DNA of 27,829 nt. It comes from a virus. Positions 3,001 to 25,578 of the stretch are shown in pieces; position 1 is the stretch's first letter, and the number at the start of each line of letters is the position of its first letter. The stretch covers positions 1 through 27,829 of IMG/VR virus record IMGVR_UViG_3300047563_000035. One strand, written 5' to 3'. Made by a program: the position numbers and the translations under genes. The notes under the pieces were generated by a model, which was not told where the DNA came from, made no database searches, and was given only the letters and a program-made list of their open reading frames with translations.

Positions 3001-3124
3001 TGTCTCTCCTGACGATATTGTAAAACTTATGAAAGATAATGGATACGACGGAGTTCGTGTCATCACGAAAAAGCACGGTACTGGCGCTCATTGGCACATC
3101 GAATGGGCCTCACTGTACGACTAA
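2..3124 (+). CDS. Large polyvalent virion protein with ART-like and M15 peptidase domains (5' partial)
   Basis: The frame is open from base 2, so the N-terminus lies outside the window; the first internal ATG is at 65 and residues are numbered from it. Residues 40-110 and 300-370 are Pro/Ala/Thr-rich linkers. Residues about 113-280 resemble the ADP-ribosyltransferase domain of phage polyvalent proteins (ART-PolyVal): an HGSP start, a glycine-rich GSGHYL-type strand, and a GIKYLDG...NVVVFND ending. Residues about 480-860 are a helical region like those in large phage polyvalent proteins. The C-terminus (about 925-1019) is a D-Ala-D-Ala carboxypeptidase/L-Ala-D-Glu peptidase domain of family M15, with H966-x6-D973 and an HWH motif (H1009/H1011) as zinc ligands. 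The size and its place just before lysis suggest an ejected internal virion protein that cleaves murein and modifies a host target on entry. The ART stretch (bases 400-930) is visibly AT-richer than its flanks, suggesting domain capture. Confidence 0.8.
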   Translation: MTPALSKWIVGKIKEPSALDRMVAEGFDPADLPPGVSPKDAMAAITQLRGIRDEAVTFKGTPETTPAAPEPAATVAEPGPTDMTPQPSQAEFSPNPEPTAPGPAPISKKEADAQFEAAKGTFPVAAKTPEGWTEHYHGSPYDFENLSSDFTSYGEGTQNEGSGHYLTESPGIADWYQDQNSAGKGGYSYKVAVKDGDFIEFDKPVAEQSKAVQNTLNKYRVFNGIELWKENPGSSLTAKFALNRIENIVFDGDKKAVSKALNEDGLTGIKYLDGNHRSIGDGKKNVVVFNDADVKVTAKKKGLDGKWEPILTQPEPIKPVRQTPAQWGKSLEEQAAAFKAAKAAGSEEPVPSPAARNATAEAPPVDEPAPTATPGAAPTTEPTTPSEGDVVTRLTDSLTAAGKVRPEQDYLTSKARSERLAAAREALKTGGVAGYRRAMAQLAGEVPKADFEAVAPKFSADDMDELVNRVSNSPKLQGYETIGALQGLDKLMNGKLPAANELAKLGKVFDDKFLKAALSNRTTTQKGMNLFSQVWNLPRSIVSTLDASIPLRQGVFMVSRPEFYTSFGQMLKQMGSQKYFDATQEALRARPTFQLMDESGLAIHDKRMLETRPEQFRSDLAGKIPVFKHLHNISERGAEGFSNQLRADVFDRLHTQYKRVGIDLAEQPELAKRVANYINIATGRGKVPFDKVGTAVGDILFSPQLMSSRIQLVTLPAKIIAEKDPILRRNMMRDLVGFSSIAATVIALAKLNGAEVSNNPLSTDWGKIKVLSKGGAAGVAEMAPTLLGVGVQQFKGETRYDIFGGMQQYLHLAAVLAMNERTMTNGRTIEFGKGYKPETRASTFFRFLRSKESPAASFINDAMEGTDYIGNKFDLKNALVSRLIPFSAQDIVTGYSPDTNAGPGKTAPAAVQPPANTGTTEVPDWASDKPQEAVNPRLIDNKVAENLLVSTLGLTPTDAGIRTHANQKKYYELARGHGVSRPGHSPHEKGNAIDIAIPSDVSPDDIVKLMKDNGYDGVRVITKKHGTGAHWHIEWASLYD

Positions 3125-3137
3125 ATAGGGACAACTA

Positions 3138-3359
3138 ATGGCATCACCAAATATGACTACCCAAGCAGAGAGGATTACCGCTCTGGAAGTTCGAGTCGCC
3201 CAAATGCAACAGTCGCAGCAGGAGACCAACGACAAGTTGGACAACTTATTGGCTATTCGCAATAAAGGCATTGGAGCTTTCTGGCTGGCGTCCACTCTGT
3301 TGGGTACTGGAATTGTAGGTCTTATCGTTCAACTCTTTTCATGGTGGGAGAATCCGTAA
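3138..3359 (+). CDS. Small coiled-coil/TM protein, holin-like accessory
   Basis: A 73-residue protein. Residues 1-42 form a heptad-rich helix with many Gln, Glu and Leu. Residues about 46-68 form one hydrophobic membrane segment ending in WW. This layout (cytoplasmic coiled coil, then a C-terminal TM) resembles XhlA-type hemolysin/holin accessory proteins of phage lysis cassettes. An AGGGA ribosome site precedes the ATG, and the stop overlaps the start of the endolysin gene by one base (TAATG), so the two are translationally coupled. It may be a holin, a holin partner or an anchor for the endolysin; sequence alone does not decide. Confidence 0.65.
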   Translation: MASPNMTTQAERITALEVRVAQMQQSQQETNDKLDNLLAIRNKGIGAFWLASTLLGTGIVGLIVQLFSWWENP

Positions 3360-3799
3360 TGCCTAATATCAAATTCCTCACCATTCACTGTGCCGCTACT
3401 CCCGAAGGACGGGATGTCAAGGCAGCGCAGATCAACGAATGGGACAAGGCTAAGTTCGGCCAGACTTCCTACCATTGGGTTGTAGAACTCGATGGCTCGA
3501 AGCATCGTGGCCTGAATGACGATGTAGAGGGCGCTCATGTCGGCGGGCACAACACTGGTAATATCGGTGTGTGTTATGTCGGCGGCGTAGCCAAAGATGG
3601 CAAGACCATCAAGGACACGCGAACCGAGGCTCAGAAGAAGGCGCTCCGTGAGATCGTCGCTGAGTACAAAGTGAAGTATCCCGTCATCAAAGTCCTCGGG
3701 CATCGTGACTGGTCGCCTGACAAGAACGGTGATAGCAAGATCACTCCGAACGAATGGATGAAGGGCTGTCCTTCGTTCGACGTTGCAACTCAACTGTAA
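3359..3799 (+). CDS. N-acetylmuramoyl-L-alanine amidase, T7 lysozyme-like endolysin
   Basis: A 146-residue Amidase_2 protein that cleaves the amide bond between N-acetylmuramic acid and L-alanine in murein. By alignment to the T7 lysozyme pattern, the zinc ligands are H10 (IHCAA), H115 (GHRDWSP) and C137 (KGCPSF), and the catalytic pair is Y38 (SYHWVV) and K135. Length matches T7 lysozyme (about 150 residues). The start at 3359 is preferred over an in-frame ATG at 3341 because GGGAG lies 8 bases before 3359 and the domain begins right after it. No signal peptide is seen, so export would depend on a holin. T7 lysozyme also inhibits phage RNA polymerase; whether this one does is unknown. Confidence 0.93.
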   Translation: MPNIKFLTIHCAATPEGRDVKAAQINEWDKAKFGQTSYHWVVELDGSKHRGLNDDVEGAHVGGHNTGNIGVCYVGGVAKDGKTIKDTRTEAQKKALREIVAEYKVKYPVIKVLGHRDWSPDKNGDSKITPNEWMKGCPSFDVATQL

Positions 3800-13205: not shown

Positions 13206-13404
13206 TTCTTTGCTCCTTCTCAGCAGAGTTTACTTCCCACATACGAGTATATCTCAGAGCAAATTCCATATCTTCTTGAGGATAATTGTGACTTACTAGG
13301 AGATGGGTTAAAGAGGGGTGTTTAACTTTATCCCAAACACAAGGAAAGCCGTACCTCCACCCTGAAGGTGGGTCAACTATAACATTTAGTGAGTCTCTGC
13401 CCAT
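13192..13404 (-). CDS. Hypothetical protein, 70 aa
   Basis: A small protein beginning MGRDSLNVIVDPPSGWRYGF; such VDPPSGWRYGFP-type starts recur in small phage proteins near T7-like polymerases. No catalytic motif is seen. AAGGA is 5 bases before the ATG, which lies inside the polymerase 3' end (19-base overlap). Function unknown. Confidence 0.62.
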   Translation of the reverse strand: MGRDSLNVIVDPPSGWRYGFPCVWDKVKHPSLTHLLVSHNYPQEDMEFALRYTRMWEVNSAEKEQRNGRV

Positions 13405-15185
13405 GTCAATCCTTCCTTTGCTGTTCCATCGAGAGGGACATTGAGGTTAAGCTCTTCACCAGCCTCTCGAATTGATTGAACGCTAATTCTGGCGTGCTCC
13501 CGTGCATCCTTAGGCGCAACGTCGTACTGCCATTCATCGTGGATGTCTCCAACCTTGATACTGTCCAATCCACTACGCCGTATATGCTTCTCCAGAATAA
13601 TGGAACCGAGAGCCATAACTCTGGCACCACCACCTTGAAGTTTGTAGTTGAGCGCCGCATGAGGAGACGGACAGACCACTCCGGCCCCGTCGCATAACCA
13701 AACGCGCCCGACTTCCTGCTCTCGAATTGCATCTTCCATGACTCCTTTGATACCTAGTCTGGCAAGGAACTGCTCACGCATGAGGGCACCCTCTTCACGA
13801 GTACCTTCAATAATCTGGGCAACCTTACCGGCTTGTGCACCGTACTGAATGGCATAGAGTAGGGTCTTGGCCCGTGGCCTAGTAACTCCAGCCAAATCCG
13901 CGTTGTACTGGTGAGGATCACCATTTACAACCTGTTCAGTGAACTCGGGTCGATTGAGATAATGAGCGAGCATCCGTAGTTCGAGGCCAGCCGCATCAGT
14001 TCCAACAAGAACTCGTCCTTCTCGGGCGACCCACAAGTCTCGTGCTTCATAAGTATAGTATCCGTCCTCACCTCTAAGAACTTCGCCTGCCTTATTAACT
14101 CGAACTGCGGGTACGTTTGCCGTATTAGGTGCTTGATGTCGAAATCTGAGTGTGTCTGCAACAAACAGTTTACCGTGAATACATCCGTCGTTCTCATCCC
14201 ACGCTTCCAACCAGTTGTTAATCATGTTTGCCCGTCCATTGACAGACATCCACTTAGTAATGAGAGCTACTTCCTCAATCCCGCTCTCTTCTGCGAACTT
14301 GATTAGGGATTTTTCGGTTGGCTTTGGGAAGCCTTTCGGAGTCTTTTCATCAGACACCCATCCGAGCGCAGTAAGTTTCTCAACTCTCTGCTTTGAGCTT
14401 CCAATGTTGAAAGAGACATTCTGAAATGCTCGATAGCTTCTTCCGTCATCAGATACCTCTGTTTCATATGTCTGTCGGTCTCTCTCATAGAGAGCCGTAG
14501 TCCGTCCAGACTTTGTAAAAACATCTCGTTCTCGTACGAGGACTTTCTGGTCAGGGAAAGCATGTCGGATCAACTCCTGTAGTTCGTCCTCTCGGGCACG
14601 AAGCTGTTGGTAGAAAAGCATAGCACGAGGACCATCAAACTTGAAGCCGCTGTTCTGCTGCTTGCTTGCGATAGCCGTGATGTTGTGCTGGATGTAACAA
14701 GTAAGTTCACTGAACCCGATCTTCTTCAAAACCTTGGTGATCTTACGAAACAATTCGGCTGTAACCTTCACGTCCTGTCGGCAGTACACGATCATCTCGT
14801 CAGAGAGATGCGTCCAGTCATTGAACACACCCTTAAGAAAACCGATCCTCGTCCCCCAAGCATCCAACGAGTGACCGTCTTTGATCGATGGACTGTAGAG
14901 CGTGGTAAGAATAAGGGTGTCAATGATCTTACTTACCGTTAATTTGGTAGCTGCCAGTCGGTTAAGAACGGGAGCATCAAACTGAATGATATTGTGGCCG
15001 ACATAAATAGAGCCAGCAGTCTCATCGAAAAATCGTTTAATCTCGGCATATGTGGTACACGTCCCCGTTTCTTTGGTTTTGATATTCTCCCAACACATTA
15101 CCCAGATAACTTTTGCATCCAGACCATCGGTCTCAATATCCACTGCGTAAACGTCTTGGGCTTGCGTTTCCCAATCAAGATAAAT
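13386..15185 (-). CDS. Family A DNA polymerase with 3'-5' exonuclease, T7-like
   Basis: The replicative polymerase, about 599 residues if started at 15185. Exonuclease motifs: VDIETD, GHNIIQFDAPVL, YCRQDVKVTAEL. Polymerase motif A is GTDAAGLELRMLAHY; motif B is RAKTLLYAIQYG, with R, K and two Tyr spaced as in T7 (Tyr at the T7 Y526 position); motif C is IHDEWQYDV. It is shorter than T7 gp5 (704), with no obvious thioredoxin-binding insertion. No 5'-3' exonuclease domain is present. No ATG fits: the first GTG (15143) would remove the residues before VDIET and has no ribosome site, while an ATT at 15185 has GGAG exactly 7 bases upstream. It follows the helicase stop by 20 bases. Confidence 0.9.
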   Translation of the reverse strand: MYLDWETQAQDVYAVDIETDGLDAKVIWVMCWENIKTKETGTCTTYAEIKRFFDETAGSIYVGHNIIQFDAPVLNRLAATKLTVSKIIDTLILTTLYSPSIKDGHSLDAWGTRIGFLKGVFNDWTHLSDEMIVYCRQDVKVTAELFRKITKVLKKIGFSELTCYIQHNITAIASKQQNSGFKFDGPRAMLFYQQLRAREDELQELIRHAFPDQKVLVRERDVFTKSGRTTALYERDRQTYETEVSDDGRSYRAFQNVSFNIGSSKQRVEKLTALGWVSDEKTPKGFPKPTEKSLIKFAEESGIEEVALITKWMSVNGRANMINNWLEAWDENDGCIHGKLFVADTLRFRHQAPNTANVPAVRVNKAGEVLRGEDGYYTYEARDLWVAREGRVLVGTDAAGLELRMLAHYLNRPEFTEQVVNGDPHQYNADLAGVTRPRAKTLLYAIQYGAQAGKVAQIIEGTREEGALMREQFLARLGIKGVMEDAIREQEVGRVWLCDGAGVVCPSPHAALNYKLQGGGARVMALGSIILEKHIRRSGLDSIKVGDIHDEWQYDVAPKDAREHARISVQSIREAGEELNLNVPLDGTAKEGLTWAETH

Positions 15186-15205: not shown

Positions 15206-16843
15206 TCAGTTATAGGCTTCAAACTCTCCGCCTGCATTTGAACCGCCTTCCTGAAACTTCTTAGCCATTTCAGGAGACAGCTCTTCCAAGCGCCCGGTTT
15301 CGTTGTTGTAGAAAATCCAGCAAGCTGGACCAGTCCTGCCCGAAAGGCGACACTTCTCAACATCCATCTGCGTTACGTTACGACGCCACTCGTCGATCTC
15401 TTTCTTGTCACGGGTCAGACGAACGACATTGTTACTGACCTGTTCGGGACCGGCGCTGCCTCGCACCTGACCCTGACGATTGATGTGGATGACCGCAACA
15501 ACAGAAATCTGGAGGTTCATCGTCAAGCTTTTAAGCTTGGTGCTGATCTCGTCAAGCTGCTTACGCTCGTCCCCACTCTGATCGGATACTATGATGCTAA
15601 GGTGGTCGAGAACAATGTAACGACAACCGAGAGCAACCATGTGCCTGATCTTAGCAAGAATGGTATCAATCTCATTGCTTCCGAAGTGGTCGTACACGAC
15701 GACTCTCTTGTTATTGAGAACCTCTTTGTACGCTTTACGAATGTCTTCTTCACTCTTCGGTGTATCAGGAAGGTGATACGGTTTGTTGTGATGGATTGAC
15801 AACATACCTAGAAGGGTTTCGCGCTTCGGTTCTTCCAAGTGGAGGAAACCAACGCCATACCCTCGTTTCTTGAGTTCCTCACTTTGCAGCAAGGCGTACT
15901 CGATCTCTTTCATAAACGTCGTCTTACCGATACCAGTATCAGCAGTGAACAACGTCAGTTCAGAGAGGCGGATGCCGTAGAGCTTCTGGTTTAGACCAGC
16001 CCAAGGGTATGGGATGCACTCCGGTTCTTTGTAGTTGATAATCTCGTCAAGCAACTCCATGTCGGAGCCGAGACGAAGACCGTCAGGCATGTAAGGAGGG
16101 GCACGAAACCACTCATTCACATAGTCTTTCTCAAGACCTTTCATCAGATAATCGTTAGGGTCTTTACACTTCTCAAGCTTGAGAATGTGGACCTTGCCTG
16201 GAGCAAAAAGCTGGGCTATCTGGTTGGCTGCCTTCTGGCCGGGATCATCATTATCCATACAGACAACGATCTTCTCGAAGCTGTCTAGATACTCAAAATT
16301 ATCCGCACAGTTGCGTTTTGCTTCGCTAGAAGACTTAACGCTGACACAAGGATATTTACTTCCTGTGAGCTGAAAACCTGCGAGGGCGTCACACTCTCCC
16401 TCAACAATCGTGATAGCTCTTCCTCCGGCAGGGAATAGCTGCTGTCCGAACAGAGTGCCTGCCCCCACGTCCCCTTCCCAGAAGAATGCTTTCTCACCCT
16501 TACGCCGTACTTTGTTTGCGACGTGTGCTCCATTTATATCGAAGTAAGGGTAAACATGACTTATAGGGCTCTCAGGATTGGTGTTAACAGTGACCTTATA
16601 CTTGTTGACAGACCCTGCGGCGATGCCCCTATCACGGATAGCGATTTGCTCTTGAACAGAAACCGGCGTCAAGTTACGGTCGGCGGCGTGGCGAACCTCA
16701 TTCTTGTCAGAAATTCTATCTTCTCCTTCATCATAGTTCTTGTGGTAAGGACAAACGAAACAGTTCTCGTTATCCTCGTAAATGGCTAGGCCATCGGACG
16801 ATCCGCACTCGGGACAGGATGAATGATGCCTGAATTTAGACAT
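15206..16843 (-). CDS. T7-like bifunctional primase-helicase
   Basis: A 545-residue homologue of T7 gp4. An N-terminal zinc-binding domain has C10-x2-C13 and C28-x2-C31 for primase site recognition. The TOPRIM primase core has IVEGECDALAG (about 146-156) and MDNDDPGQKAA (about 196-206). The DnaB-like helicase has Walker A TADTGIGKTTF (about 300-310) and a Walker B-type RYIVLDHLS stretch. It would unwind the fork and lay down primers for the polymerase encoded just downstream. ATG 16843 is preferred over 16849 since AAGGAG is 7 bases before it. It is driven by the promoter at 16870-16898. Confidence 0.93.
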   Translation of the reverse strand: MSKFRHHSSCPECGSSDGLAIYEDNENCFVCPYHKNYDEGEDRISDKNEVRHAADRNLTPVSVQEQIAIRDRGIAAGSVNKYKVTVNTNPESPISHVYPYFDINGAHVANKVRRKGEKAFFWEGDVGAGTLFGQQLFPAGGRAITIVEGECDALAGFQLTGSKYPCVSVKSSSEAKRNCADNFEYLDSFEKIVVCMDNDDPGQKAANQIAQLFAPGKVHILKLEKCKDPNDYLMKGLEKDYVNEWFRAPPYMPDGLRLGSDMELLDEIINYKEPECIPYPWAGLNQKLYGIRLSELTLFTADTGIGKTTFMKEIEYALLQSEELKKRGYGVGFLHLEEPKRETLLGMLSIHHNKPYHLPDTPKSEEDIRKAYKEVLNNKRVVVYDHFGSNEIDTILAKIRHMVALGCRYIVLDHLSIIVSDQSGDERKQLDEISTKLKSLTMNLQISVVAVIHINRQGQVRGSAGPEQVSNNVVRLTRDKKEIDEWRRNVTQMDVEKCRLSGRTGPACWIFYNNETGRLEELSPEMAKKFQEGGSNAGGEFEAYN

Positions 16844-16869
16844 TTTCATACTCCTTATCTTTTACCATT

Positions 16870-16898
16870 ATTATACTCTATTTAGTTACACATATCAA
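16870..16898 (-). promoter_or_regulatory. sigma70 promoter of the primase-helicase/polymerase block
   Basis: On the - strand, -35 TTGATA (16898-16893), 17-base spacer, -10 TATAAT (16875-16870). The stop codon of the HAD gene lies within the -35 box, so promoter and coding end share bases. Leader to the ATG is only about 20 bases. Confidence 0.85.
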
Positions 16899-17392
16899 GC
16901 GTTTGTTTTAGTAATCTTTCGCGGTGCTATCCCATCCAAGATACGGCGGAAGTTCTTCATTGTAAGACCTTCATCAAAATCTGTGTTGATGAGATGACCA
17001 ACAAACCGATCATCGGGATCCGGCTCATCATCAACAATAAAGAAATCAGTGACCTCGGGATGCCGGGCCAGCCACTCTACTACACGATCATAGCGCCAGT
17101 GAATGTCTCGGTTGCAGTACGCATCTTCGTGGAAGAGGTCAGGATTGATACCCTGATTGATGCAGTGTTCGTGAACGTCTCCGGGACCATCGACTCCGAT
17201 CCGCCAGAAGCCAGTTCTGATCCAGCTTGTGTGGAGGACAATCTTTCGGTCCTGTTTTTCACAAGCTTTGTTAATCATGCTGACAGCACAAGGATCAAAG
17301 ACGGTCACGACACCTTTGCTTTGGTTAGGGAGCATGTACGCCCTTCCGGGAAGGACAACACCATCAATGTCGAGGAAGAGAACCTTAGTCAT
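16895..17392 (-). CDS. HAD-superfamily phosphatase-like protein
   Basis: A 165-residue protein starting MTKVLFLDIDGVVLPG, HAD motif I (D-x-D at residues 8 and 10). KIVLHTSW contains the motif II Thr/Ser. FFIVDDEPD near residue 120 supplies the acidic motif IV, followed by HLINTDFDEGLT. This resembles the small HAD domain found in phage and RNA-repair (Swiss-army-knife-type) proteins, which can be polynucleotide 3'-phosphatases. The substrate here is unknown. The upstream open frame is not used: the ATG at 17392 overlaps the previous gene's end by 8 bases. Confidence 0.8.
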   Translation of the reverse strand: MTKVLFLDIDGVVLPGRAYMLPNQSKGVVTVFDPCAVSMINKACEKQDRKIVLHTSWIRTGFWRIGVDGPGDVHEHCINQGINPDLFHEDAYCNRDIHWRYDRVVEWLARHPEVTDFFIVDDEPDPDDRFVGHLINTDFDEGLTMKNFRRILDGIAPRKITKTNA

Positions 17393-17831: not shown

Positions 17832-18035
17832 TTAAAAAGATATGTCGTCGTCTAAATCGTCGTGAGGTTTCTTCTCGACCCTTGCCACGAGCATATATTC
17901 TCGGGTGGTGTTGTGAGAATGGAGCCAAGAATACTCCTGTTGTGCCTGCTTCTCGTCGTAAAAGACACACCCCTTGCTCCAACTATCATCCATTTCCAGA
18001 TCACGTCTGGTTTCAGCGTCCCTGATCCTATACAA
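17832..18035 (-). CDS. Hypothetical protein, about 67 aa, last gene of the ligase cluster
   Basis: Basic/acidic alternating N-terminus (YRIRDAETRRDLEMDDSW), a CVFYDEKQAQQEYSWLHSHN middle and a tail of Asp residues (DDLDDDISF). The start is uncertain: TTG 18035 overlaps the ATP-grasp stop by 8 bases, the open frame extends to 18110, and the first ATG is well inside. No family recognised. Its place directly after the ATP-grasp gene makes it a possible accessory or small substrate protein, which is speculation. Confidence 0.5.
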   Translation of the reverse strand: MYRIRDAETRRDLEMDDSWSKGCVFYDEKQAQQEYSWLHSHNTTREYMLVARVEKKPHDDLDDDISF

Positions 18036-18792
18036 AATCAGCAATCGCTTGCTTGTATCTGTCTGCGGTTCGGTCTTCGAGACCACAGGCTGTGTTGACC
18101 TCGAGCACAAAGGCTTTTCCTTCTTTTTCGTTCCAGATTACATCGACACCACCAAAATCAAGGCCGAGAGCTATAAGAGCATTCTCGGCCTGATCTAGTA
18201 CGTCTTGGGGGACTTCGTTAATAGGTGCTTCAACGAAGACGAAACCCCCTTCGAGATTGCGGACCTGCCAATTCGGGTTTTCTACATCAAGTTTACGAGC
18301 TTTACGCTGAACAAAGAACGGGAACGCATCATCCGGCCCCCCATTTGAAAAAACATGGACACGATACTCGTCCTTCTTCTTGATATACCTCGTGTACAGA
18401 GGTGCATCGACAAGCTCTTCGACATTGTTGCAGATCACGATACCTGCTCCAGAATGCCCTCTCAAGACCGTTCGGGCCACAAGGGGGAAGACATTGGCTG
18501 GTGCTGCGTTTGCTGCTGCACGGCCCTCGAAACAGTCAGGAATGCGTACTCCTGCTGCCGACAAAGCCTTGAAGGTCGCCAGCTTGCACTGTGCTACCTG
18601 TACTTCGGTGTTGAGGGTGGTGGCGGGGGCGAAAACAGGAAGAGCACTAGAACCCCAATTGATAACCACATCACCAAGTCGTGGCCTGTACTTAGACCCG
18701 GCATGTTTCAGAACCTTTCCTTCGAGTGCCTCGGCCAATTTCTTCGCAGAAGCCGAACCCTGCTTGTATGGGTAGATACGATACTTGGTCAT
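18028..18792 (-). CDS. ATP-grasp amide/peptide ligase, phage type
   Basis: A 254-residue ATP-grasp enzyme; these activate a carboxylate as acyl phosphate and join it to an amine. A glycine-rich ATP loop is at about 111-118 (RGHSGAGI). DEYRVHVF (141-148) supplies the conserved Arg. DFGGVDVIW (212-220) and FVLEVNTACGLED (228-240) supply the metal-binding Glu/Asn residues of the RimK/YheCD type. Phages of the phiEco32 group carry similar small ATP-grasp proteins beside COOH-NH2 ligases. It follows the Amidoligase_2 gene by 5 bases, indicating one transcript. Substrates are unknown. Confidence 0.87.
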   Translation of the reverse strand: MTKYRIYPYKQGSASAKKLAEALEGKVLKHAGSKYRPRLGDVVINWGSSALPVFAPATTLNTEVQVAQCKLATFKALSAAGVRIPDCFEGRAAANAAPANVFPLVARTVLRGHSGAGIVICNNVEELVDAPLYTRYIKKKDEYRVHVFSNGGPDDAFPFFVQRKARKLDVENPNWQVRNLEGGFVFVEAPINEVPQDVLDQAENALIALGLDFGGVDVIWNEKEGKAFVLEVNTACGLEDRTADRYKQAIADFV

Positions 18793-18797
18793 CAGAA

Positions 18798-20081
18798 CTA
18801 TGCCTCATCTGCTTCGGGGGGGATAGGACGGTCGAACTCAGGCTCGAACGGGTCACGGGCAGGACGAACCTTGATCGCTTTCATACGAGGACGCACCTCG
18901 TTTTCGTCGATTATACGCACCGGACGAGGTGCATTCCTCAACTGCTGGGCTGCGTCACCCCAACGCTCTGCAACACGAGCCTGACGATCCTGTTGCAAGA
19001 ACTGTTCCATGTTCATCCCCACGTCAGCTCCCGGTTCACCGCGCGGACGATTGAACGGGTTGAAGACCGGAGGCTGTACCAGACGTGCACCACGTCGCGG
19101 ACCACCCGCCACTTGGCCACCACCTGCAAACAATGCCGGATCGACATCAAGCTCCGGTTCTGAATCACCACCGAATGATGCCCAAAAATCACGACCTCGA
19201 AGACGCACCTGATCGAACTCGGTGCCGATTCTATAACACATCATCTGGACGAGCCGAAGCCCTTCGTAGATGGATGCGTTTATCTCATGCTCGTCGATCC
19301 CCTTGGTGAGCAAGATAAAGTTCTCTTCCGAGAACACTTCCTTGACGAAGCCGAGCGGCGTCTTGACAGAGATTGCCTCTATCATATGCACCGGGTTCTT
19401 CATCGTGTAGCACGCATACCCACAGAACTCGTTGAGGATGTTGAGCCACGAAACGATGTCTTCTTCGGTGTCCAGCCCTCGCATGGCACGGAACTCGACC
19501 GTGCCAAACTTGTTGATGGCAGCGAGGTTCAGCGAACAGTATCGGAAGTCCTCACGGAACGCACCGAAGTTCTGCTTGTTGAAAACAGCATCCGAAATCC
19601 ACTGCACCTGCTCCTCCGCATGACGAGAAGACAGGCAGAACAGATTGCCGCGACGATCCTCACCGCAGTAGCGATCCAGAAGGTCTTCGAGAATGGTGAA
19701 CAGGATGAACATATTCACCAACTGGTATGCATTCTTGTCGCCCATATTGAAGTGGACGTGGGTGGACGTGCGGTTCGAGCACACGAGCTTCGCCTTGCGC
19801 TTCTCGAAATACTTGAACAACGTCGAGATGCGTTCGATCGAAGTATTGTACTTGACAGGACCGTTGAAGACCCATTCACACGACGAACCGTGGTTGTCGC
19901 GAAGCGAACCGTCCGTATCTGGTGCCCAATCTTTGACGAGGTTGAGGTCGGAACCATCCCAATCGACGTTGCGGCCTTCGCATTCCAGCTCGATACCAAA
20001 CAAGTCTCCTTGCTTTGGGGCGCGGGCCAGCTTGCTGACATTAGGGATCGGTGAATTAAGAAAATCTTGAAGACGGGTCAT
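18798..20081 (-). CDS. Amidoligase_2 family protein with disordered C-terminus
   Basis: A 427-residue protein. The first about 300 residues show the glutamine-synthetase-fold amidoligase pattern: GIELECEG with E31, E33 and E35 (metal/ATP side), TDGSL, a STHVHFNMG strand (about 105-113) and GTVEFRAMRG (about 194-203). Such enzymes make amide bonds using ATP. Residues about 310-427 are Pro/Arg/Gly-rich and look disordered, unusual for the family, and may bind nucleic acid or a partner. AGGAG is 7 bases before the ATG. Spacing to neighbours is 5-9 bases. Confidence 0.85.
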   Translation of the reverse strand: MTRLQDFLNSPIPNVSKLARAPKQGDLFGIELECEGRNVDWDGSDLNLVKDWAPDTDGSLRDNHGSSCEWVFNGPVKYNTSIERISTLFKYFEKRKAKLVCSNRTSTHVHFNMGDKNAYQLVNMFILFTILEDLLDRYCGEDRRGNLFCLSSRHAEEQVQWISDAVFNKQNFGAFREDFRYCSLNLAAINKFGTVEFRAMRGLDTEEDIVSWLNILNEFCGYACYTMKNPVHMIEAISVKTPLGFVKEVFSEENFILLTKGIDEHEINASIYEGLRLVQMMCYRIGTEFDQVRLRGRDFWASFGGDSEPELDVDPALFAGGGQVAGGPRRGARLVQPPVFNPFNRPRGEPGADVGMNMEQFLQQDRQARVAERWGDAAQQLRNAPRPVRIIDENEVRPRMKAIKVRPARDPFEPEFDRPIPPEADEA

Positions 20082-20090
20082 CTATTTCTC

Positions 20091-20747
20091 CTATGCTAGC
20101 GGAATACGACATTCCTCAGCCTCTTCCCGAAGGAAGTGGAACTTGGGAGGAAGGTTCAGGGCTTTCTGACCCCTCACAGCGATGCCACACCTGATGCCCT
20201 TGTGCATCAGCAGCAGTGCTTCGAGGTCGTGGTCTATTAGGAACGCGAACGAACGACTGACCGCCACAGAGGAGTTATCCTTGTTACCAAGCATCTCGCC
20301 CGCTTCGGTGAAGGTCGGGAACTTTCCCGACACCATGTCAACAAAGCCCTTCGACCCGATCATCATGTTGAAGTGGAGGTTACCCGACTTATTGCCGCGA
20401 ATGTTGGTGAGCGAACAGGTGTTGGCCGACAGACCCTGCTGATTCTGTCGGATGGGAACACGAGACGCACAGATAGCCTCGCCGCCATGATTGAAGTAGC
20501 CCATCTTGAAAGGAGCCAAATCAAACTTCTTGGACGAGAGATATTTTCGTGTCTCCTTACCACCATTTTCACGTCCCCCATAAGGGAGTTCATAGAAGAA
20601 GACACGAGCGATCTCCTTCTTATCCTCGTCGTCCGGGATATTCACCCTACTAATAAGAACAGGTGCACCATCGTACAGAACGACAGTACCTTCTAAACGA
20701 AACTTGACTTCCTTTGTTGTTTCGTAAGTTTCACCTCTAAGAGACAT
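20091..20747 (-). CDS. Unknown protein of the peptide-ligase cluster, 218 aa
   Basis: A soluble protein with no motif I can name. Visible features are a beta-rich N-terminal half (VKFRLEGTVVLYDGAPVLI), a Gly/Glu/Lys loop (PYGGRENGGKETRK), a Cys pair region, and a helical C-terminal part with FLIDHDLEALLLMHKG. It sits between two amidoligase-fold genes with 9- and 17-base gaps, with AAGGAG 9 bases before its ATG. The position suggests a ligase subunit or the acceptor protein of the reaction. This is inference from context only. Confidence 0.75.
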   Translation of the reverse strand: MSLRGETYETTKEVKFRLEGTVVLYDGAPVLISRVNIPDDEDKKEIARVFFYELPYGGRENGGKETRKYLSSKKFDLAPFKMGYFNHGGEAICASRVPIRQNQQGLSANTCSLTNIRGNKSGNLHFNMMIGSKGFVDMVSGKFPTFTEAGEMLGNKDNSSVAVSRSFAFLIDHDLEALLLMHKGIRCGIAVRGQKALNLPPKFHFLREEAEECRIPLA

Positions 20748-20764
20748 GTTGCTTGCTCCTTGTA

Positions 20765-21586
20765 TCAGAGTGCCCGAGCCTGAGCGACGATAGCCTTACC
20801 GTTCGGGACGGTATTCAGGATAAAGTGCTCAGCCAAATAGGCATCACTTAGATTTATGCTATTGATGAGACGATCTTCGCCGATCTTGTTAGCAGGGCGG
20901 ACACCCTTCAACAGATCGTTGACAGCCTGCACGGTCTGGTTGAACACGAACCGCATACGGTTCTCATTCAGCAACCACGCATTCGAGAGAACGCGATACT
21001 CGACACCGTAAGGCTTGGGGCGGAATGCCCCAGCAGCGCCATACATCTTGCGACGTTGAATGTCCTTGTCGAACAACAAGGATGGAAGACCAAGGTAACA
21101 GTCGAGCTGTTTGATGAGAGTAGCACAGCGGATCATGTGTTCGTCGCTGCTCGGGTCCGCATCTTGGCAGAAGCCAATGTGTACGTGACCGGATGCAGTC
21201 CGCATGGTACCGTTGTTGTCGGGACGTGGATTAGCTTTGCCAGTGTAAGCGTTGTAATCGGGCATACACCCAAGCTCCTTGGCTTCGTCCGGCTGTGCCC
21301 GGAAGTGATTGCCGTTGAACTTGCACGACGGCACGATGGCGAAGTCGTAACCCGGAACCATCTCCTTCATCTGACGCATGACAGACTGATTGAACCGAAC
21401 AAAGTCGTCGGCGTTGTCCGCCGGGTCTATGTTGTATTCCAGAGCCATACCGTCCACCTGAACGGCGCCATCCTCAACCCGGAAAGGAGCTTCCTTCGTT
21501 CCGGGGATCAACCCATGTGCCGAACGAAACTTGCCGTCCTGCGTGACGAACAGTTCGGGGTCACACCCAATGGTAATCTTCATCAT
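20765..21586 (-). CDS. phiEco32-like COOH-NH2 ligase type 2
   Basis: A 273-residue protein of the phage COOH.NH2 ligase-type 2 family (glutamine-synthetase-like fold). ITIGCDPELFV at the N-terminus carries the conserved D-P-E. VDGMALEYNIDPA, a SGHVHIGF strand and GVEYRVLSNAW (E/R) match the E, H and ER strands of amidoligases. The family name comes from E. coli phage phiEco32. Start at 21586 is chosen since AAGGA is 6 bases upstream; longer frames (21646) would overlap the GATase stop. It differs from the Amidoligase_2 gene downstream, so the cluster has two ligases of this fold plus an ATP-grasp. Confidence 0.87.
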   Translation of the reverse strand: MMKITIGCDPELFVTQDGKFRSAHGLIPGTKEAPFRVEDGAVQVDGMALEYNIDPADNADDFVRFNQSVMRQMKEMVPGYDFAIVPSCKFNGNHFRAQPDEAKELGCMPDYNAYTGKANPRPDNNGTMRTASGHVHIGFCQDADPSSDEHMIRCATLIKQLDCYLGLPSLLFDKDIQRRKMYGAAGAFRPKPYGVEYRVLSNAWLLNENRMRFVFNQTVQAVNDLLKGVRPANKIGEDRLINSINLSDAYLAEHFILNTVPNGKAIVAQARAL

Positions 21587-21602
21587 GTTCATTCCTTCTC
21601 TC

Positions 21603-22790
21603 TCAGTGACACACAACTTGAACTTTCTTGTCGGGTTCAGGCTCACCCGTCAAGCACTTGTAACAGATAGGCTTGCTCGGAGCCAACCAAGCGAACCGAT
21701 CTTTCTCAGTGATGAACTCCAACTCGCACCAGCCGCAGCCGGTTTCAAGTTTTTTTTCCAACTCCTTCGCAGTCAAAAGCACGCCGGCATAGCCTTTGTA
21801 CTTCTTGGCCGAAAGGATGTCACGAACCTTGCCGTCAGGCTGCTCGCTCGATGTGCCGGTGGATGAACTGGCGCTCGTCTCCGCTAGTTTCCCGCCATTG
21901 CTTGGTCCGTTCGTCCCATATGGCGTACTCGAAACTGCTGCTATCGCGCTGCTGCTCGTGCTGCTGCCCGTGCTGCTGCCCGCAGCCTTCGCCGCTCCTT
22001 GCGTGTGACCCCCACCAGTCCAGACTTCCCTGTTCCAGCTTTGAAAAAAAGTGGGAGTCTGCTTTCCGACTACGCCTCCTTTGCGTTCCATGACGATTTC
22101 TTCGTTCATATTCATGGGCGCAGGGAAACGATACAGAGTATCCTCGGCGAACGAGAACACCTTGTCGTCCTGCAACTGCAGGTCATAACGCGAACAGGCG
22201 ACGCGGATCATCCACATCTCCGATGCCCAAACGAGGGTCTTCTTGCCTTCTTCAAAGGCATAAAAGAGAGGACGTTCCTTGTTACGGAGAACCCGTAACT
22301 CTTCCTCTAGATGATCGTAGTAGGTCAGTGCCCACGCACCTTCGACCTTCTCGATGGTCTTCTCAAGACCCTCGACGGCGATGTTGTTGTACAAAGCCTC
22401 GCTGTCCGTGCCGAACCGAGCATGGTCGATCAGAACGTGCTTGTTTTTGAGAGTGCCGTTATGAGCACCAACAACAAGACAGGCACCATCATCGTCGTCG
22501 ATCATAAACGGATGAGAATTGGTCTTGACGTTCTTGCCGACCGTACCAAATCGATTGTGACCGAGCCACAGGAAATCATTCAGCTTTAGATGCTGATCTA
22601 GTTTCGGGCCTTCGACGAACTCATAACCGGGGATAGTGGCCTTGAGAACAGCCGTGTCAGTGTTGTGACGAATAGCCGCGACGCCAGTGCTGTCACGACC
22701 TCGCCATGTGTCCAAATAGAGCATGGCAGCAAGCACGTCTTTGTGCTTTGCCAGCATATTGCTGGAGTAGATACCGACAAGTCCGCACAT
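21603..22790 (-). CDS. Class II glutamine amidotransferase with C-terminal zinc ribbon
   Basis: A 395-residue protein. The N-terminal Ntn glutaminase domain has Cys2 as nucleophile (MCGLVGIYS), RGRDSTG (31-36), HNRFGT (78-83), AHNGTL (109-114, oxyanion Asn/Gly) and TDSEALY (128-134), the GlmS/PurF/AsnB pattern. It releases ammonia from glutamine. No synthetase domain follows; instead there is a Ser/Thr/Gly-rich linker (about 268-325) and a Cys4 zinc ribbon (C352, C355, C376, C379). Ammonia may be passed to a ligase encoded next door. AAGGA is 9 bases upstream. The zinc ribbon on a GATase is unusual. Confidence 0.9.
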   Translation of the reverse strand: MCGLVGIYSSNMLAKHKDVLAAMLYLDTWRGRDSTGVAAIRHNTDTAVLKATIPGYEFVEGPKLDQHLKLNDFLWLGHNRFGTVGKNVKTNSHPFMIDDDDGACLVVGAHNGTLKNKHVLIDHARFGTDSEALYNNIAVEGLEKTIEKVEGAWALTYYDHLEEELRVLRNKERPLFYAFEEGKKTLVWASEMWMIRVACSRYDLQLQDDKVFSFAEDTLYRFPAPMNMNEEIVMERKGGVVGKQTPTFFQSWNREVWTGGGHTQGAAKAAGSSTGSSTSSSAIAAVSSTPYGTNGPSNGGKLAETSASSSTGTSSEQPDGKVRDILSAKKYKGYAGVLLTAKELEKKLETGCGWCELEFITEKDRFAWLAPSKPICYKCLTGEPEPDKKVQVVCH

Positions 22791-22817
22791 ACGGGAATTC
22801 CTTTCTTGGTGTGTGGC

Positions 22818-23498
22818 TCAGCAAGCTGGGAAGATGTAGTTATCCACGAGGTCGAGGAAGTAGTTCCGACACGCTCCATGTTGAAACTCAGGATGCGGCT
22901 GGAAACACAGCGTCAGGCTGTCAGGATACCACAACACTTCCATATCGTCGGCGACGGCTTCGTCGCGCTCGATCTTTTCAGATGCTCCTTCCTTGCGTGT
23001 AGACAGTTCGGCAACAGCAATGATTTCCGCATCGTCAGCGGCTCGCATTTGCTGGTGATGGGTGCTGGTCATGCCATCGACAACTTGTCCCGTCCGCATG
23101 TCGATGATGCTGTGATTGCGTCCGGCGTGATTGTTCACGTCCTGCCACAATCCGCCACCGTTCATCACGTTCAGGAACTGACCGCCGCGACAGATGCCAA
23201 TCATAGGCTTCTTGAGGGCCAGAGCCTCGCCATACACACCAGCCTCATATTCATCACGCTTAGTGTTGAAGTGAGTTACGGACAGCGCCTTCTCCTTGTA
23301 ATATCTCGGATCGACATCCTCGCCGCCAGTGAAACATATGATGTCGGCGTCCTCGACCGAGCGGGCACCCTTCATGCCAGCATCGTGGAACATCTTCATG
23401 TACTGGAAGCCACCGCCGACGACGAACACACGAAGATCATAAATCTCACGCATGGTTGCCTCGCCTTCCAGCTTCTTGAGTTCAACAGGGGTCAACAT
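22818..23498 (-). CDS. Class I glutamine amidotransferase-like peptidase C26
   Basis: A 226-residue protein with the class I GATase/gamma-glutamyl hydrolase triad: C103 in GICRGGQ, H202 and E204 in QPHPEF. FTGGEDVDPRYY and the TSTHHQQM loop are typical of the PuuD/C26 subgroup, which hydrolyses gamma-glutamyl amide bonds. In this cluster it could cleave a gamma-glutamyl intermediate after ligation, as in gamma-glutamylated pathways, or supply ammonia. Three ATGs stand in a row; 23498 has the best spacing (7) to AAGGAG. Confidence 0.9.
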   Translation of the reverse strand: MLTPVELKKLEGEATMREIYDLRVFVVGGGFQYMKMFHDAGMKGARSVEDADIICFTGGEDVDPRYYKEKALSVTHFNTKRDEYEAGVYGEALALKKPMIGICRGGQFLNVMNGGGLWQDVNNHAGRNHSIIDMRTGQVVDGMTSTHHQQMRAADDAEIIAVAELSTRKEGASEKIERDEAVADDMEVLWYPDSLTLCFQPHPEFQHGACRNYFLDLVDNYIFPAC

Positions 23499-23510
23499 CA
23501 TCATTCTCCT

Positions 23511-24461
23511 TCAAAGATCGAGATCGAGAAAAACAGTATCCTTCGATGGCGGAGTGGGCGGGGTCGTTACACCCTCCACTTCATGCTGCCATTCGAGGAC
23601 ACGACGAACGAACTCGGGACCATCAGCGCCTTCGCCGATAATCTTGCCACCCCATCCGTCATCTTTCTGGTAAGGCTTGCAGAAGCCTTTGATGACAACA
23701 GAAGGCGTAGCCTGCTTGCCGATCTTGCCACCCTTGGCCTTTACGTCCGTCCTGAACACGCTGGCCGTGTCAGTTGCAGCCGGGTTGATGGTGCCCTCCA
23801 ACAAAGAGGCAACGTCAGGCTCGCCTCCTCCGTAGGCATCGAACACGGTGGAGTGTCCTTCCACCCCGGTAAAGCCGAACGTAGCGCCCTTGATGGTGCG
23901 GACGTAGGAACAGACTAGAACAGCTAGTAGAGGGTTCACACCGCCCTTGTAGAGCGCCAGCCATGTGTCCAGAGCCTTGGCCCCTTCCGTGCTGTAGCGA
24001 AGCACTTTGCAAATCCACATGGCTTGTGCCTGCGTCAGAGCGCCGGGACCGCAGAGCAGAATGACGCCGCCGTTCAGCAGGCTGTCATCATCGTCACGGT
24101 TCAGCACGAACTCGGAGAACGGGGATTCACGAGCCATCCACAGGATGATGGCATCCATGGCTTCTTCGCTGCACACCGACTTGCTGTGCTTCTTGCTGTG
24201 GCACGACAACACGAGGAACGGCTTGGCGTCCTTCGGATAGGTGGTGGTCCACGAGGTCGTGGACCACCTTTCGTCTTTGCTACGACGCACCTTGGTGTAA
24301 GCGTAGCCAATCCACGAGTGACAGGCAGTGTGAGGAGTGACGAACTCCTCACCGTCGAGATCGAGGCAAGTGCCTGAGCAAACGCCCGAGTCCCACTCCT
24401 CGTTAATCTCGATCAATTTCTTCTTGGCAGCCGCCAAAACCTTATCTGAAACGTCCGTCAT
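23511..24461 (-). CDS. Unknown protein of the peptide-ligase cluster, 316 aa
   Basis: No family recognised. The N-terminal part has a C-x3-C (VCSGTC) and a Cys/His-containing stretch (TPHTACHSW). The middle has a hydrophobic GGVILLCGPGALTQAQAMWICKVLRY. The C-terminal third is Gly/Lys-rich and ends acidic (VFLDLDL). The start at 24461 has GAGG 6 bases upstream and lies within the GGCT gene end (20-base overlap), so it is coupled to it. Its gene contains a perfect 12-bp inverted repeat (24243-24268) encoding a Ser/Thr/Trp run. It could be an adaptor, scaffold or the modified substrate. Confidence 0.75.
   Translation of the reverse strand: MTDVSDKVLAAAKKKLIEINEEWDSGVCSGTCLDLDGEEFVTPHTACHSWIGYAYTKVRRSKDERWSTTSWTTTYPKDAKPFLVLSCHSKKHSKSVCSEEAMDAIILWMARESPFSEFVLNRDDDDSLLNGGVILLCGPGALTQAQAMWICKVLRYSTEGAKALDTWLALYKGGVNPLLAVLVCSYVRTIKGATFGFTGVEGHSTVFDAYGGGEPDVASLLEGTINPAATDTASVFRTDVKAKGGKIGKQATPSVVIKGFCKPYQKDDGWGGKIIGEGADGPEFVRRVLEWQHEVEGVTTPPTPPSKDTVFLDLDL
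24243..24268. repeat. Perfect inverted repeat, 12-bp arms
   Basis: GGTGGTCCACGA (24243-24254), spacer GG, then TCGTGGACCACC (24257-24268). All 12 positions pair. It lies inside the coding sequence of the unknown 316-aa protein and would form a very stable RNA hairpin. Confidence 0.9.
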
Positions 24462-24807
24462 TCTCGCCTCGCTCTTGTTGAGTGTAAATAAGCCAGTCAC
24501 CGCAGGAAATCAGTCGTTGAGGATTGAACTCTTGATTGTACTCATAAATCCAGCCATCCAAAATCGGACGGCGGATATACAAGCTGTCAACCGTAAACTT
24601 CGGGTGGTACCCTTCGTAGGAGTCAACAGCATCCAAATCCTCCACCTCGATCTTCTCGCAAGTGACGAAGCTGTCACCGCCAAGGATGATGCCCGGATAC
24701 CATCCTAGATCGTACAGCTTTCCCGGTATCTGCACAGTTCTCGGCTCACCCGGACGCAGAGTTCCGTACACATAGACGGTGTGTCTCACCGATTTTGTCT
24801 CAGCCAC
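24442..24807 (-). CDS. Gamma-glutamylcyclotransferase-like (AIG2/GGCT) protein
   Basis: A 121-residue protein of the GGCT fold. VYVYGTLRPGE near the N-terminus is the substrate-binding YGxLxxG loop, LYDLGWYPGI follows, and AVDSYEGYHPKF contains the Glu expected as catalytic base, then YIRRP and IYEYN. Members release 5-oxoproline from gamma-glutamyl amines or peptides. Start: GGAGG abuts an ATG at 24813 but lies 6 bases before GTG 24807, so the GTG is favoured. It overlaps the upstream zinc-ribbon gene by 8 bases. It may recycle or cap gamma-glutamyl products of the ligases. Confidence 0.82.
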   Translation of the reverse strand: MAETKSVRHTVYVYGTLRPGEPRTVQIPGKLYDLGWYPGIILGGDSFVTCEKIEVEDLDAVDSYEGYHPKFTVDSLYIRRPILDGWIYEYNQEFNPQRLISCGDWLIYTQQERGENDGRFR

Positions 24808-24967
24808 CAGCATCCTCCACAGGGCACGGAACGTATTTGAATACGCTCAGGTTCATGGGCCACGGATAATGGATGCGGACAGCTTGATGCTTACCGTTCT
24901 CACCACCGCAGACAGGGCACTCGTTCACCGGCTCTTGGCGAAGAGTGCGAAGTGTCGACACGCTCAT
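24800..24967 (-). CDS. Zinc-knuckle microprotein, 55 aa
   Basis: Begins MSVSTLRTLRQEPVNE, then CPVCGGENGKH and later a single PCPVE cysteine: one C-x2-C knuckle plus one Cys and nearby His residues. The ATG overlaps the stop of the dioxygenase-like gene (ATGA) with GGGAG 10 bases upstream, and its end overlaps the GGCT gene. Coupling on both sides shows it belongs to the cluster. Small size makes it a candidate carrier or substrate, though that is a guess. Confidence 0.72.
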   Translation of the reverse strand: MSVSTLRTLRQEPVNECPVCGGENGKHQAVRIHYPWPMNLSVFKYVPCPVEDAGG

Positions 24968-25578
24968 TGGATCGTTACTCCCGGACAGTTGAGCCGAACC
25001 ATCGTGCGATAGCTGTCAACCTGCACAGGCAGGCTTTCGTGCAGCGTCGCCACGGTGCCGCAGTAGGCACGGTTGCGGTTCATGTGAAGGACAGCGAGAT
25101 TGTTCGTCTCGATGCTCGAACAGTCGCCACCTTCACCGATGGGACCGTCATAGGTGCCGATGAAAGCACGAGCGGCACTCACATTCGATGCGAGGATCAG
25201 AGCCTCGGGATCGGTGAAGTCGATATCATCCCAGCCTGCGCTCATATGGCTTCCACCGTGACCACCACGACCGCGATGACCGCCATAGCCACGATGACCA
25301 CCGCCACCATGCGCCGACAGCGACGGATGCCAGTAACCGTCAACATGAAGGCCGGGCCGACGCTGTGCTGTGCCAGCCGGAACGAACGCCTGATCTGCCA
25401 TGAAATAGATCGGCTGATCGGAAGTTATTCCAACCAACATGGCGTCAACCGTATTCTGCCAGTGTGCGAGATGGTCGGGAAGACCCTGCTCCTGATAGAA
25501 TGGGACCATGTAATGACGCTCCGCATTGAAGCCCGGAAAGAACACAGGGCCACGCTCTTGCATGATGCTCTGAAACAT
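24964..25578 (-). CDS. Putative 2OG/Fe(II) dioxygenase-like protein with Gly/His-rich loop
   Basis: A 204-residue protein. H78-x-D80 (GLHVDGYW) and H180 with R191 (LHESLPV...RTMVRLN) fit the HxD...H-x10-R pattern of 2-oxoglutarate/Fe(II) oxygenases, which hydroxylate peptides, amino acids or nucleobases. Between the halves is an odd low-complexity insertion (about 90-111) of Gly with five His and several Arg, which could bind metal. A strong site (AAGGAGG) precedes the ATG. It is the first gene of the cluster, downstream of a gene-poor stretch. I infer the family from residue pattern only; it could be another cupin-like protein. Confidence 0.55.
   Translation of the reverse strand: MFQSIMQERGPVFFPGFNAERHYMVPFYQEQGLPDHLAHWQNTVDAMLVGITSDQPIYFMADQAFVPAGTAQRRPGLHVDGYWHPSLSAHGGGGHRGYGGHRGRGGHGGSHMSAGWDDIDFTDPEALILASNVSAARAFIGTYDGPIGEGGDCSSIETNNLAVLHMNRNRAYCGTVATLHESLPVQVDSYRTMVRLNCPGVTIQ

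Follow-up and report, generated by a model that had tools for sequence, protein, structure and literature searches.

A further copy of a recognised phage amide-bond cassette, with two unnamed proteins as core members

Background

What does a phage make with a set of amide-bond-forming and amide-bond-cleaving enzymes encoded among its replication genes? The question is raised by the IMG/VR virus record IMGVR_UViG_3300047563_000035, of which we analysed a stretch of 27,829 nt (the window). A sequence-only reading of this stretch had described a ten-gene cluster forming a complete pathway for making and trimming amide bonds, and had called its substrate and product undefined. This is so experimentally; however, a specific murein hypothesis has long been in print (PMC5498523; PMC10580990), namely that murein peptides are modified against superinfection, and in both places it stands as a hypothesis only.

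Judged by its genes, the window holds a new copy of an already recognised cassette and not a new cluster. The name "peptidoglycan modification cassette" was published by Duhaime 2017 (PMC5498523), who cite Iyer and Hardies 2013. That description lists the cassette for RIO-1, phiEco32, 7-11, PA11, tf, LUZ24, PaP3 and CW02 and names seven genes, while giving no role to the two proteins that we call D and H (PMC5498523). What the present analysis adds is the recognition, from comparison of loci, of these two unnamed proteins as core members. The cassette is carried by hundreds of short-tailed phages that infect many Gram-negative hosts. These phages, some of them studied for therapy, devote about one sixth of the genome to the pathway and transcribe it at once.

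Gene content of the window

The genes form a co-directional run on the minus strand with short intergenic gaps, as had been noted from the sequence. The gaps had been put at no more than 27 bases, which holds only with the weaker of two starts of A, TTG 18110, because the likelier ATG 17993 gives a protein of 53 aa and leaves a gap of 34 bases after B. The likeliest starts are ATG 21592 for E, in place of GTG 21646, and ATG 24461 for H. The cassette lies among replication genes, adjoining the primase-helicase (15206-16849), with polymerase A at 13386-15143, and it brings together two COOH-NH2 (amido)ligases, an ATP-grasp protein and a class II glutamine amidotransferase. The features are given below with their occurrence in 99 loci, most of which were collected through similarity to E.

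17832..17993, minus strand: A, 53-aa protein after B; 6 loci, close relatives only
18028..18792, minus strand: B, ATP-grasp carboxylate-amine ligase, RimK-like (phrog_2599, 3.2e-72); 96 loci
18798..20081, minus strand: C, Amidoligase_2 ligase (PF12224, 1.2e-9; phrog_7469, 4.7e-51); 97 loci
20091..20747, minus strand: D, core protein without assigned function; 97 loci
20765..21592, minus strand: E, phiEco32-type COOH-NH2 ligase (PF14395, 3.5e-10; phrog_3815, 1.3e-86)
21603..22790, minus strand: F, class II (Ntn) glutamine amidotransferase (PF13522, GATase_6, 1.7e-13); 98 loci
22818..23504, minus strand: G, class I glutamine amidotransferase / Peptidase C26 of gamma-glutamyl hydrolase type (PF07722, 1.7e-21); 81 loci
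23511..24461, minus strand: H, core protein of 316 aa at the head of the cassette; 79 loci
24442..24813, minus strand: I, optional gamma-glutamylcyclotransferase, AIG2/GGACT-like (PF06094, 4.4e-11); 32 loci
24800..24967, minus strand: J, 55-aa CxxC microprotein, not core; 3 loci
24964..25578, minus strand: K, 2-oxoglutarate dioxygenase-like protein (phrog_8970), not core; 2 loci

Profile searches place E and C above the Pfam cut-offs. E scores 40 bits against PF14395 (COOH-NH2_lig, curated cut-off 25), and its DPE, HxH and RxKxYGxEYR motifs are invariant; C scores 38.9 bits against PF12224 (Amidoligase_2, curated cut-off 22), with conserved ExExE, HxH and ExR motifs and with E31, E33, E35, H108, H110, R143, E196 and R198 at 100% in 97 loci. 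A GS-like fold is established for both families, and the three ligases of two folds read from the sequence agree with two GS-fold enzymes (E, C) and one ATP-grasp enzyme (B). The last is placed by phrog_2599 and not by Pfam, where it falls below the cut-offs with only weak likeness to D-Ala ligases. It is slightly closer to RimK-type glutamate ligases, matching the NCBIfam RimK_fam model weakly (4.4e-7) and reaching 29.5 bits against a cut-off of 143.4 for RimK alpha-L-glutamate ligases (NCBIfam/TIGR00768); its ATP-grasp residues K70, R107, E142, R144, K164, D217, E231 and N233 are at 100% in 96 loci.

The two amidotransferases and the cyclotransferase-like enzyme that had been recognised from the sequence all lie above the Pfam cut-offs. 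F has the active site of a class II enzyme (C2, R80, N111, G112 and D129, at 97-100% in 98 loci) and a C-terminal four-cysteine zinc-ribbon-like motif (C352, C355, C376 and C379, also at 97-100%). G scores 77.4 bits against Peptidase_C26 (cut-off 20.5), its triad of C105, H204 and E206 is at 100% in 81 loci, and its PDB relatives are Lin1909 and the probable glutamine amidotransferase 7d4r. Among the loci that bear I, its YG motif and Glu67 are at 100%.

Gamma-glutamyl-amine metabolism employs the same kinds of enzyme (C26 hydrolase, GGACT, GS-fold ligase), and G matches the models of gamma-glutamyl-GABA and gamma-glutamyl-CDP-amidate hydrolases weakly. The cassette might make and cut gamma-glutamyl amines, or a small peptide with modifications, as the effector itself, for instance in polyamine or nitrogen handling or as an inhibitor of host defence. 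We regard this as unlikely, given that the genes conserved with the cassette include no transporter, regulator or signal receptor, that the PADLOC defence models match none of ten proteins, and that some branches of the family do without G or I.

At the edges of the run, J matches no Pfam family above cut-off. K, read earlier as dioxygenase-like, has the 2OG-Fe(II) dioxygenase signature HxD...H...R (H78, D80, H180 and R191, invariant in 7 proteins), but no Pfam or NCBIfam profile matched it; its relatives occur in Ackermannviridae, Gordonia and jumbo phages.

Distribution and conservation of the cassette

In the 99 loci the typical order is H-G-F-E-D-C-B-primase-polymerase, and the core consists of the seven genes H, G, F, E, D, C and B, directly before the primase-helicase. 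The refuting conditions named with the sequence-only reading, failure of the HMM searches or a lack of co-occurrence in related phages, did not arise for these seven. I is optional and A, J and K are lineage-specific, local additions, so that "ten-gene complete pathway" was an overstatement. B is duplicated in several loci, and the LUZ24- and phiEco32-type cassettes have no recognisable G, which is therefore not obligatory.

In the loci examined, the core genes co-occur far beyond chance, although part of this co-occurrence reflects common descent, as most of the loci were found through their likeness to E. Phage records number 317 for E and 302 for C, and the two are spread over host genera in almost equal counts. 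The cassette type appears to be restricted to viruses, namely short-tailed phages of phiEco32, LUZ24, PA11, CW02 and RIO-1 type: in 84,980 cellular genomes there are 9 loci, every one on a MAG contig. We therefore rejected the idea of a host-derived auxiliary metabolic gene set.

The genes could be separate auxiliary functions, side by side through inheritance only; the loci do belong to related phages, which have retained the primase and polymerase too. Such an explanation is very improbable, because the gene order is kept even between phages in which E has only about one third of its residues in common, and D and H track the cassette genes better than the polymerase (pairwise-identity correlations are 0.51-0.75 among C, D, E, F, G and H, while those of D and H to the polymerase are 0.41-0.42). 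Moreover, the active sites are intact, with the catalytic residues of the cassette enzymes 97-100% conserved. A pathway for making and trimming amide bonds, as first proposed from the sequence, is well supported by families, co-occurrence, order and conserved catalytic residues.

The unnamed core proteins D and H

D is placed nearly always between the GS-fold ligases E and C. Its AlphaFold2 model (pLDDT 92) gave weak matches to SH3-like barrels (best E 6.7e-3, query TM-score at most 0.24), among them the modified domain of EF-P and the GenX-EF-P complex. The conserved residues are G83, R96, R100 and G105. The probable role of D is that of an adaptor or a subunit without catalysis of its own, perhaps in a ligase complex.

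The EF-P matches raise the alternative of protein tagging, in which B, E and C would tag a host or phage protein with glutamate, glutamine or a short isopeptide, D serving as substrate adaptor or acceptor. Among curated families, B most resembles RimK-type glutamate ligases and ATP-grasp peptide maturases, and the phage ATP-grasp family carries the annotation of S6 modification enzyme. Yet the matches of D are weak, to a barrel fold (SH3) that is common; no Lys, Ser, Cys or acidic residue is invariant in D that could carry a tag; and no small peptide gene is conserved with the cassette (the commonest nearby small-ORF family occurs in 18 loci). Tagging is, on balance, rather doubtful. A ribosomally made peptide product was rejected, there being no conserved precursor gene.

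In H, Cys47 and Arg155 are invariant and Glu159 and His203 nearly so, and the protein is a candidate cysteine (thiol) enzyme. Its AlphaFold2 model is confident (pLDDT 87) and matched no PDB fold (best E 0.45). In BFVD it matched proteins of the cassette phages CVT22 and CW02, besides unnamed ones. Sequence profiles gave no link between H and the two genes that precede E in LUZ24 and phiEco32, and PDB sequence searches with the E, D and H profiles returned nothing convincing; weak matches of H to designed repeat proteins were set aside, as they span only about 50 residues. With their invariant residues to mutate, D and H offer concrete experimental handles.

Proposed pathway

We propose that the cassette encodes an immediate-early, glutamine-fed amide-bond pathway, most likely aimed at the murein stem peptide or its precursors, and we would put the probability of this reading at roughly 0.45. 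F (and G) would hydrolyse glutamine or gamma-glutamyl compounds to release ammonia or glutamate; E, C and B would each form one amide or gamma-glutamyl bond on a small carboxylate or amine, or on a peptide; and G and, where present, I would trim gamma-glutamyl groups. D would be a non-catalytic subunit of a ligase complex and H a further thiol enzyme. The envelope may thereby be altered early in infection, for instance against superinfection. What we infer here is the order of reactions, what D and H do and, most of all, that murein is the target.

In phage HP1 the cassette genes are expressed immediately, ahead of the takeover and DNA genes (PMC7082346). Mass spectrometry of SU10 preparations detected the ATP-grasp protein, the GATase and the cyclotransferase (PMC4281155), and a 23.3 kDa product in these preparations has a mass equal to that of D. 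Gatase-dependent amidation of bacterial murein peptides is established, through MurT/GatD (PMC3267633).

No sequence feature of the cassette points specifically to murein, which speaks against that target. The proteins might form a multi-protein amidation machine of an undescribed kind, in which D bridges the two GS-fold ligases and H, a cysteine enzyme with a non-PDB fold, completes a virus-specific product with an amide linkage; this we consider distinctly unlikely.

Decoration of DNA bases, one of the outputs first suggested, would make the ligases the source of an amide-linked group on phage DNA, and the cassette does adjoin the primase-helicase and polymerase. It is nevertheless highly improbable because DNA of related phages is cut by ordinary restriction enzymes: that of a LUZ24-like phage by EcoRI, HindIII, Sau3A and AluI (PMC3634792), that of phage Delta by BamHI (PMC8540360) and that of phage tf by HaeIII (PMC3517423). 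Furthermore, the cassette has no conserved base hydroxylase or DNA-base transferase, and the thymidylate synthase of the window is an ordinary ThyX. These restriction data steer the search for the product away from DNA.

Comparison with known systems

Gamma-glutamyl-amine metabolism, as in bacterial PuuA/PuuD and GGACT, uses a GS-fold ligase, a C26 hydrolase and a cyclotransferase. The cassette is alike in chemistry but not a member, since its ligases are of other families, two of them are joined by an ATP-grasp enzyme, and the PuuD-type model matches far below cut-off. B has catalytic residues in common with RimK and ATP-grasp peptide ligases, but is not a RimK by the cut-off test.

The closest likeness is to the cassette of RIO-1/HP1, phiEco32, LUZ24, PA11 and CW02, which has the same two amidoligases, ATP-grasp protein, glutamine amidotransferase(s) and gamma-glutamylcyclotransferase as the window. 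The RIO-1/HP1-type cassette, like the window copy, lies beside replication genes, whereas K, J and A are additions peculiar to the window copy in this comparison. Zobellviridae (PA11, CVT22, CW02, Klyazma and oyster-associated phages) have the same H-G-F-E-D-C-B order before the primase-helicase. The E protein of the window is at most about 55% identical to those of isolated phages, and three IMG/VR contigs are 70-79% identical.

Gene content and active sites

Eleven co-directional reading frames, lettered A to K in order of increasing coordinate, occupy 17832-25578 of this 27.8 kb virus record. "Pfam" marks a match above the curated cut-off.

17832-17993, - strand: A, lineage-specific protein
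18028-18792, - strand: B, phage ATP-grasp family (3e-72; Pfam scores under cut-offs)
18798-20081, - strand: C, Amidoligase_2 (Pfam)
20091-20747, - strand: D, core protein, no family found in Pfam
20765-21592, - strand: E, phiEco32-like COOH-NH2 ligase (Pfam)
21603-22790, - strand: F, class II glutamine amidotransferase (Pfam)
22818-23504, - strand: G, Peptidase C26/class I amidotransferase (Pfam)
23511-24461, - strand: H, core protein, no family found in Pfam
24442-24813, - strand: I, GGACT (Pfam)
24800-24967, - strand: J, lineage-specific protein, no family found in Pfam
24964-25578, - strand: K, lineage-specific protein, no family found in Pfam

The ligase, amidotransferase and cyclotransferase families named in the sequence-only reading are thus borne out, C, E, F, G and I by Pfam and B by the phage family. 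Alignment across the cassette loci shows essentially no variation in the catalytic residues: Cys2, Arg80, Asn111-Gly112 and Asp129 in F; Cys105, His204 and Glu206 in G; Lys70, Arg107, Glu142, Lys164, Asp217, Glu231 and Asn233 in B; Glu31/33/35, His108/110, Arg143, Glu196 and Arg198 in C; the DPE, HxH and RxKxYGxEYR motifs in E; and the YG motif and Glu67 in I. Judged from these alignments, the cassette appears to be a working, not a decaying, pathway. The C-terminus of F (21603-22060) carries four cysteines, CxxC...CxxC, that are 97-100% conserved in 98 loci and probably form an unnamed zinc-ribbon-like domain.

Co-occurrence and gene order

A tblastn search of 50,697 phage records places E in 317 of them and C in 302, and the two counts almost match within each host genus (E/C: Pseudomonas 121/118, Escherichia 93/92, Vibrio 22/19, Proteus 8/8, Salmonella 7/7). 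Every gene was then searched with iterated profiles across 99 loci (81 from IMG/VR, 17 annotated phage regions and the window). Core genes were found in most (F and E 98, C and D 97, B 96, G 81, H 79) and the others in fewer (I 32, A 6, J 3, K 2), counts that express linkage inside one phage group, not independent events, because most loci were selected by E similarity and a few are the same phage entered twice (PA11, CVT22). Of the proposed ten-gene unit, a complete pathway for making and trimming amide bonds whose members were expected to co-occur in homologue neighbourhoods, the core therefore stands, but A, J and K do not. I is a mobile optional member. Seven relatives of K share its HxD...H...R motif, the mark of 2-oxoglutarate dioxygenases, but K is found chiefly in phages of the Ackermannviridae, of Gordonia and of the jumbo type, irrespective of cassette presence; among the 99 loci, J and A turn up in close relatives only. 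These three do not belong to the cassette.

The commonest order is H-G-F-E-D-C-B-primase-polymerase. LUZ24, phiEco32, Pantoea TacPo2, Alcaligenes QDWS535 and Aeromonas APT65 have E-D-C-F-B, mostly with the cyclotransferase present. In nearly every locus D separates E from C. An additional ATP-grasp gene is present in many cassettes (loci L027, L031, L033, L038, L040, L045, L047, L049, L051, L056 and others); it often lies between G and F and sometimes substitutes for the copy after C. Locus L003 has an apparent second F and E after B.

The cassette was virus-restricted in a scan for E across 84,980 genomes of bacteria and archaea, made with degenerate peptide patterns that distant cellular relatives could escape: it gave nine loci, all on metagenome-assembled contigs and two from one bin. 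PF14395 and PF12224 were absent from all 14 well-known genomes searched.

Several neighbouring genes were also observed. A 1019-aa protein (65-3124, + strand) has a sub-threshold ADP-ribosyltransferase (ART-PolyVal) match and a C-terminus that by eye is D-Ala-D-Ala carboxypeptidase-like. Between the cassette and the primase-helicase lies a HAD_SAK_2 phosphatase (16895-17389, - strand), a kind occurring in RNA-repair proteins. In Slicky01 (L011) and APT65 (L020), genes for PRPP synthetase and nicotinate/nicotinamide phosphoribosyltransferase lie immediately upstream of the cassette.

Core proteins D and H

D and H evolve fastest, with mean pairwise identities of 24% and 18% against 33-52% for the cassette enzymes. 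Their divergence correlates within the cassette (D-C 0.75, H-C 0.69, D-H 0.69) more strongly than with the polymerase (D 0.41, H 0.42). For D the predicted model is confident (pLDDT 92), and its best PDB matches are weak ones to SH3-like barrels, tandem Tudor and EF-P domains among them. Some arginines and glycines of D are conserved, and since the alignment holds no invariant residue able to carry a tag, we read D as a subunit or adaptor. The good model of H (pLDDT 87) found no match in a PDB fold search; among its matches to viral proteins are some from CVT22 and CW02, both cassette phages. With Cys47 and Arg155 invariant, Glu159 at 95% and a histidine near 203 in almost all rows, H is plausibly a cysteine enzyme.

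Proposed mechanism and target

Glutamine or gamma-glutamyl compounds are the substrates from which enzymes of the F and G families liberate ammonia or glutamate, and F and G would supply these products here. Members of the E, C and B families each join a carboxylate to an amine at the expense of ATP; each of the three would make one such bond. G and I, whose families can cleave gamma-glutamyl bonds, could trim them. One small substrate may be handled by these enzymes in turn, while D keeps the two GS-fold ligases, E and C, together.

Class II glutamine amidotransferases are used in bacterial murein amidation. Class I enzymes serve there as MurT/GatD (PMC3267633). In Pseudoalteromonas infected by HP1, cassette genes are switched on immediately, ahead of host takeover and DNA genes (PMC7082346), and mass spectrometry of E. 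coli phage SU10 places the ATP-grasp, amidotransferase, cyclotransferase and a 23.3 kDa product among the early products (PMC4281155); the last agrees exactly in mass with the product of the RefSeq record's D gene. Of the possible targets we favour the murein stem peptide, since its natural chemistry includes amidation and gamma-glutamyl bonds, both amidotransferase classes serve murein amidation in bacteria, and expression from the outset would fit a change made early to the envelope. The window's endolysin (3341-3799, + strand), of the N-acetylmuramoyl-L-alanine amidase type, would still cut murein whose stem peptide is modified beyond L-Ala. The stem peptide has two live rivals, a target protein and a small metabolite. 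DNA base decoration, also among the outputs first suggested, is unlikely, since LUZ24-like phage DNA is cut by EcoRI, HindIII, Sau3A and AluI (PMC3634792), that of phage Delta by BamHI (PMC8540360) and that of phage tf by HaeIII (PMC3517423). Our literature search found no experimental identification of the cassette's substrate or product.

Relation to the published cassette

Duhaime and colleagues reported that RIO-1-like podoviruses carry a 'peptidoglycan modification cassette' of seven genes encoding these same enzymes, named phiEco32, 7-11, PA11, tf, MR299-2, LUZ24, PaP3 and CW02 as carriers, and hypothesized that it changes the host surface against superinfection (PMC5498523). A passage in a later paper restates this for phiEco32, crediting Iyer 2009 (PMC10580990). 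The cassette studied here is a real and conserved copy of this already described kind and, to judge by its conserved residues, a functional one.
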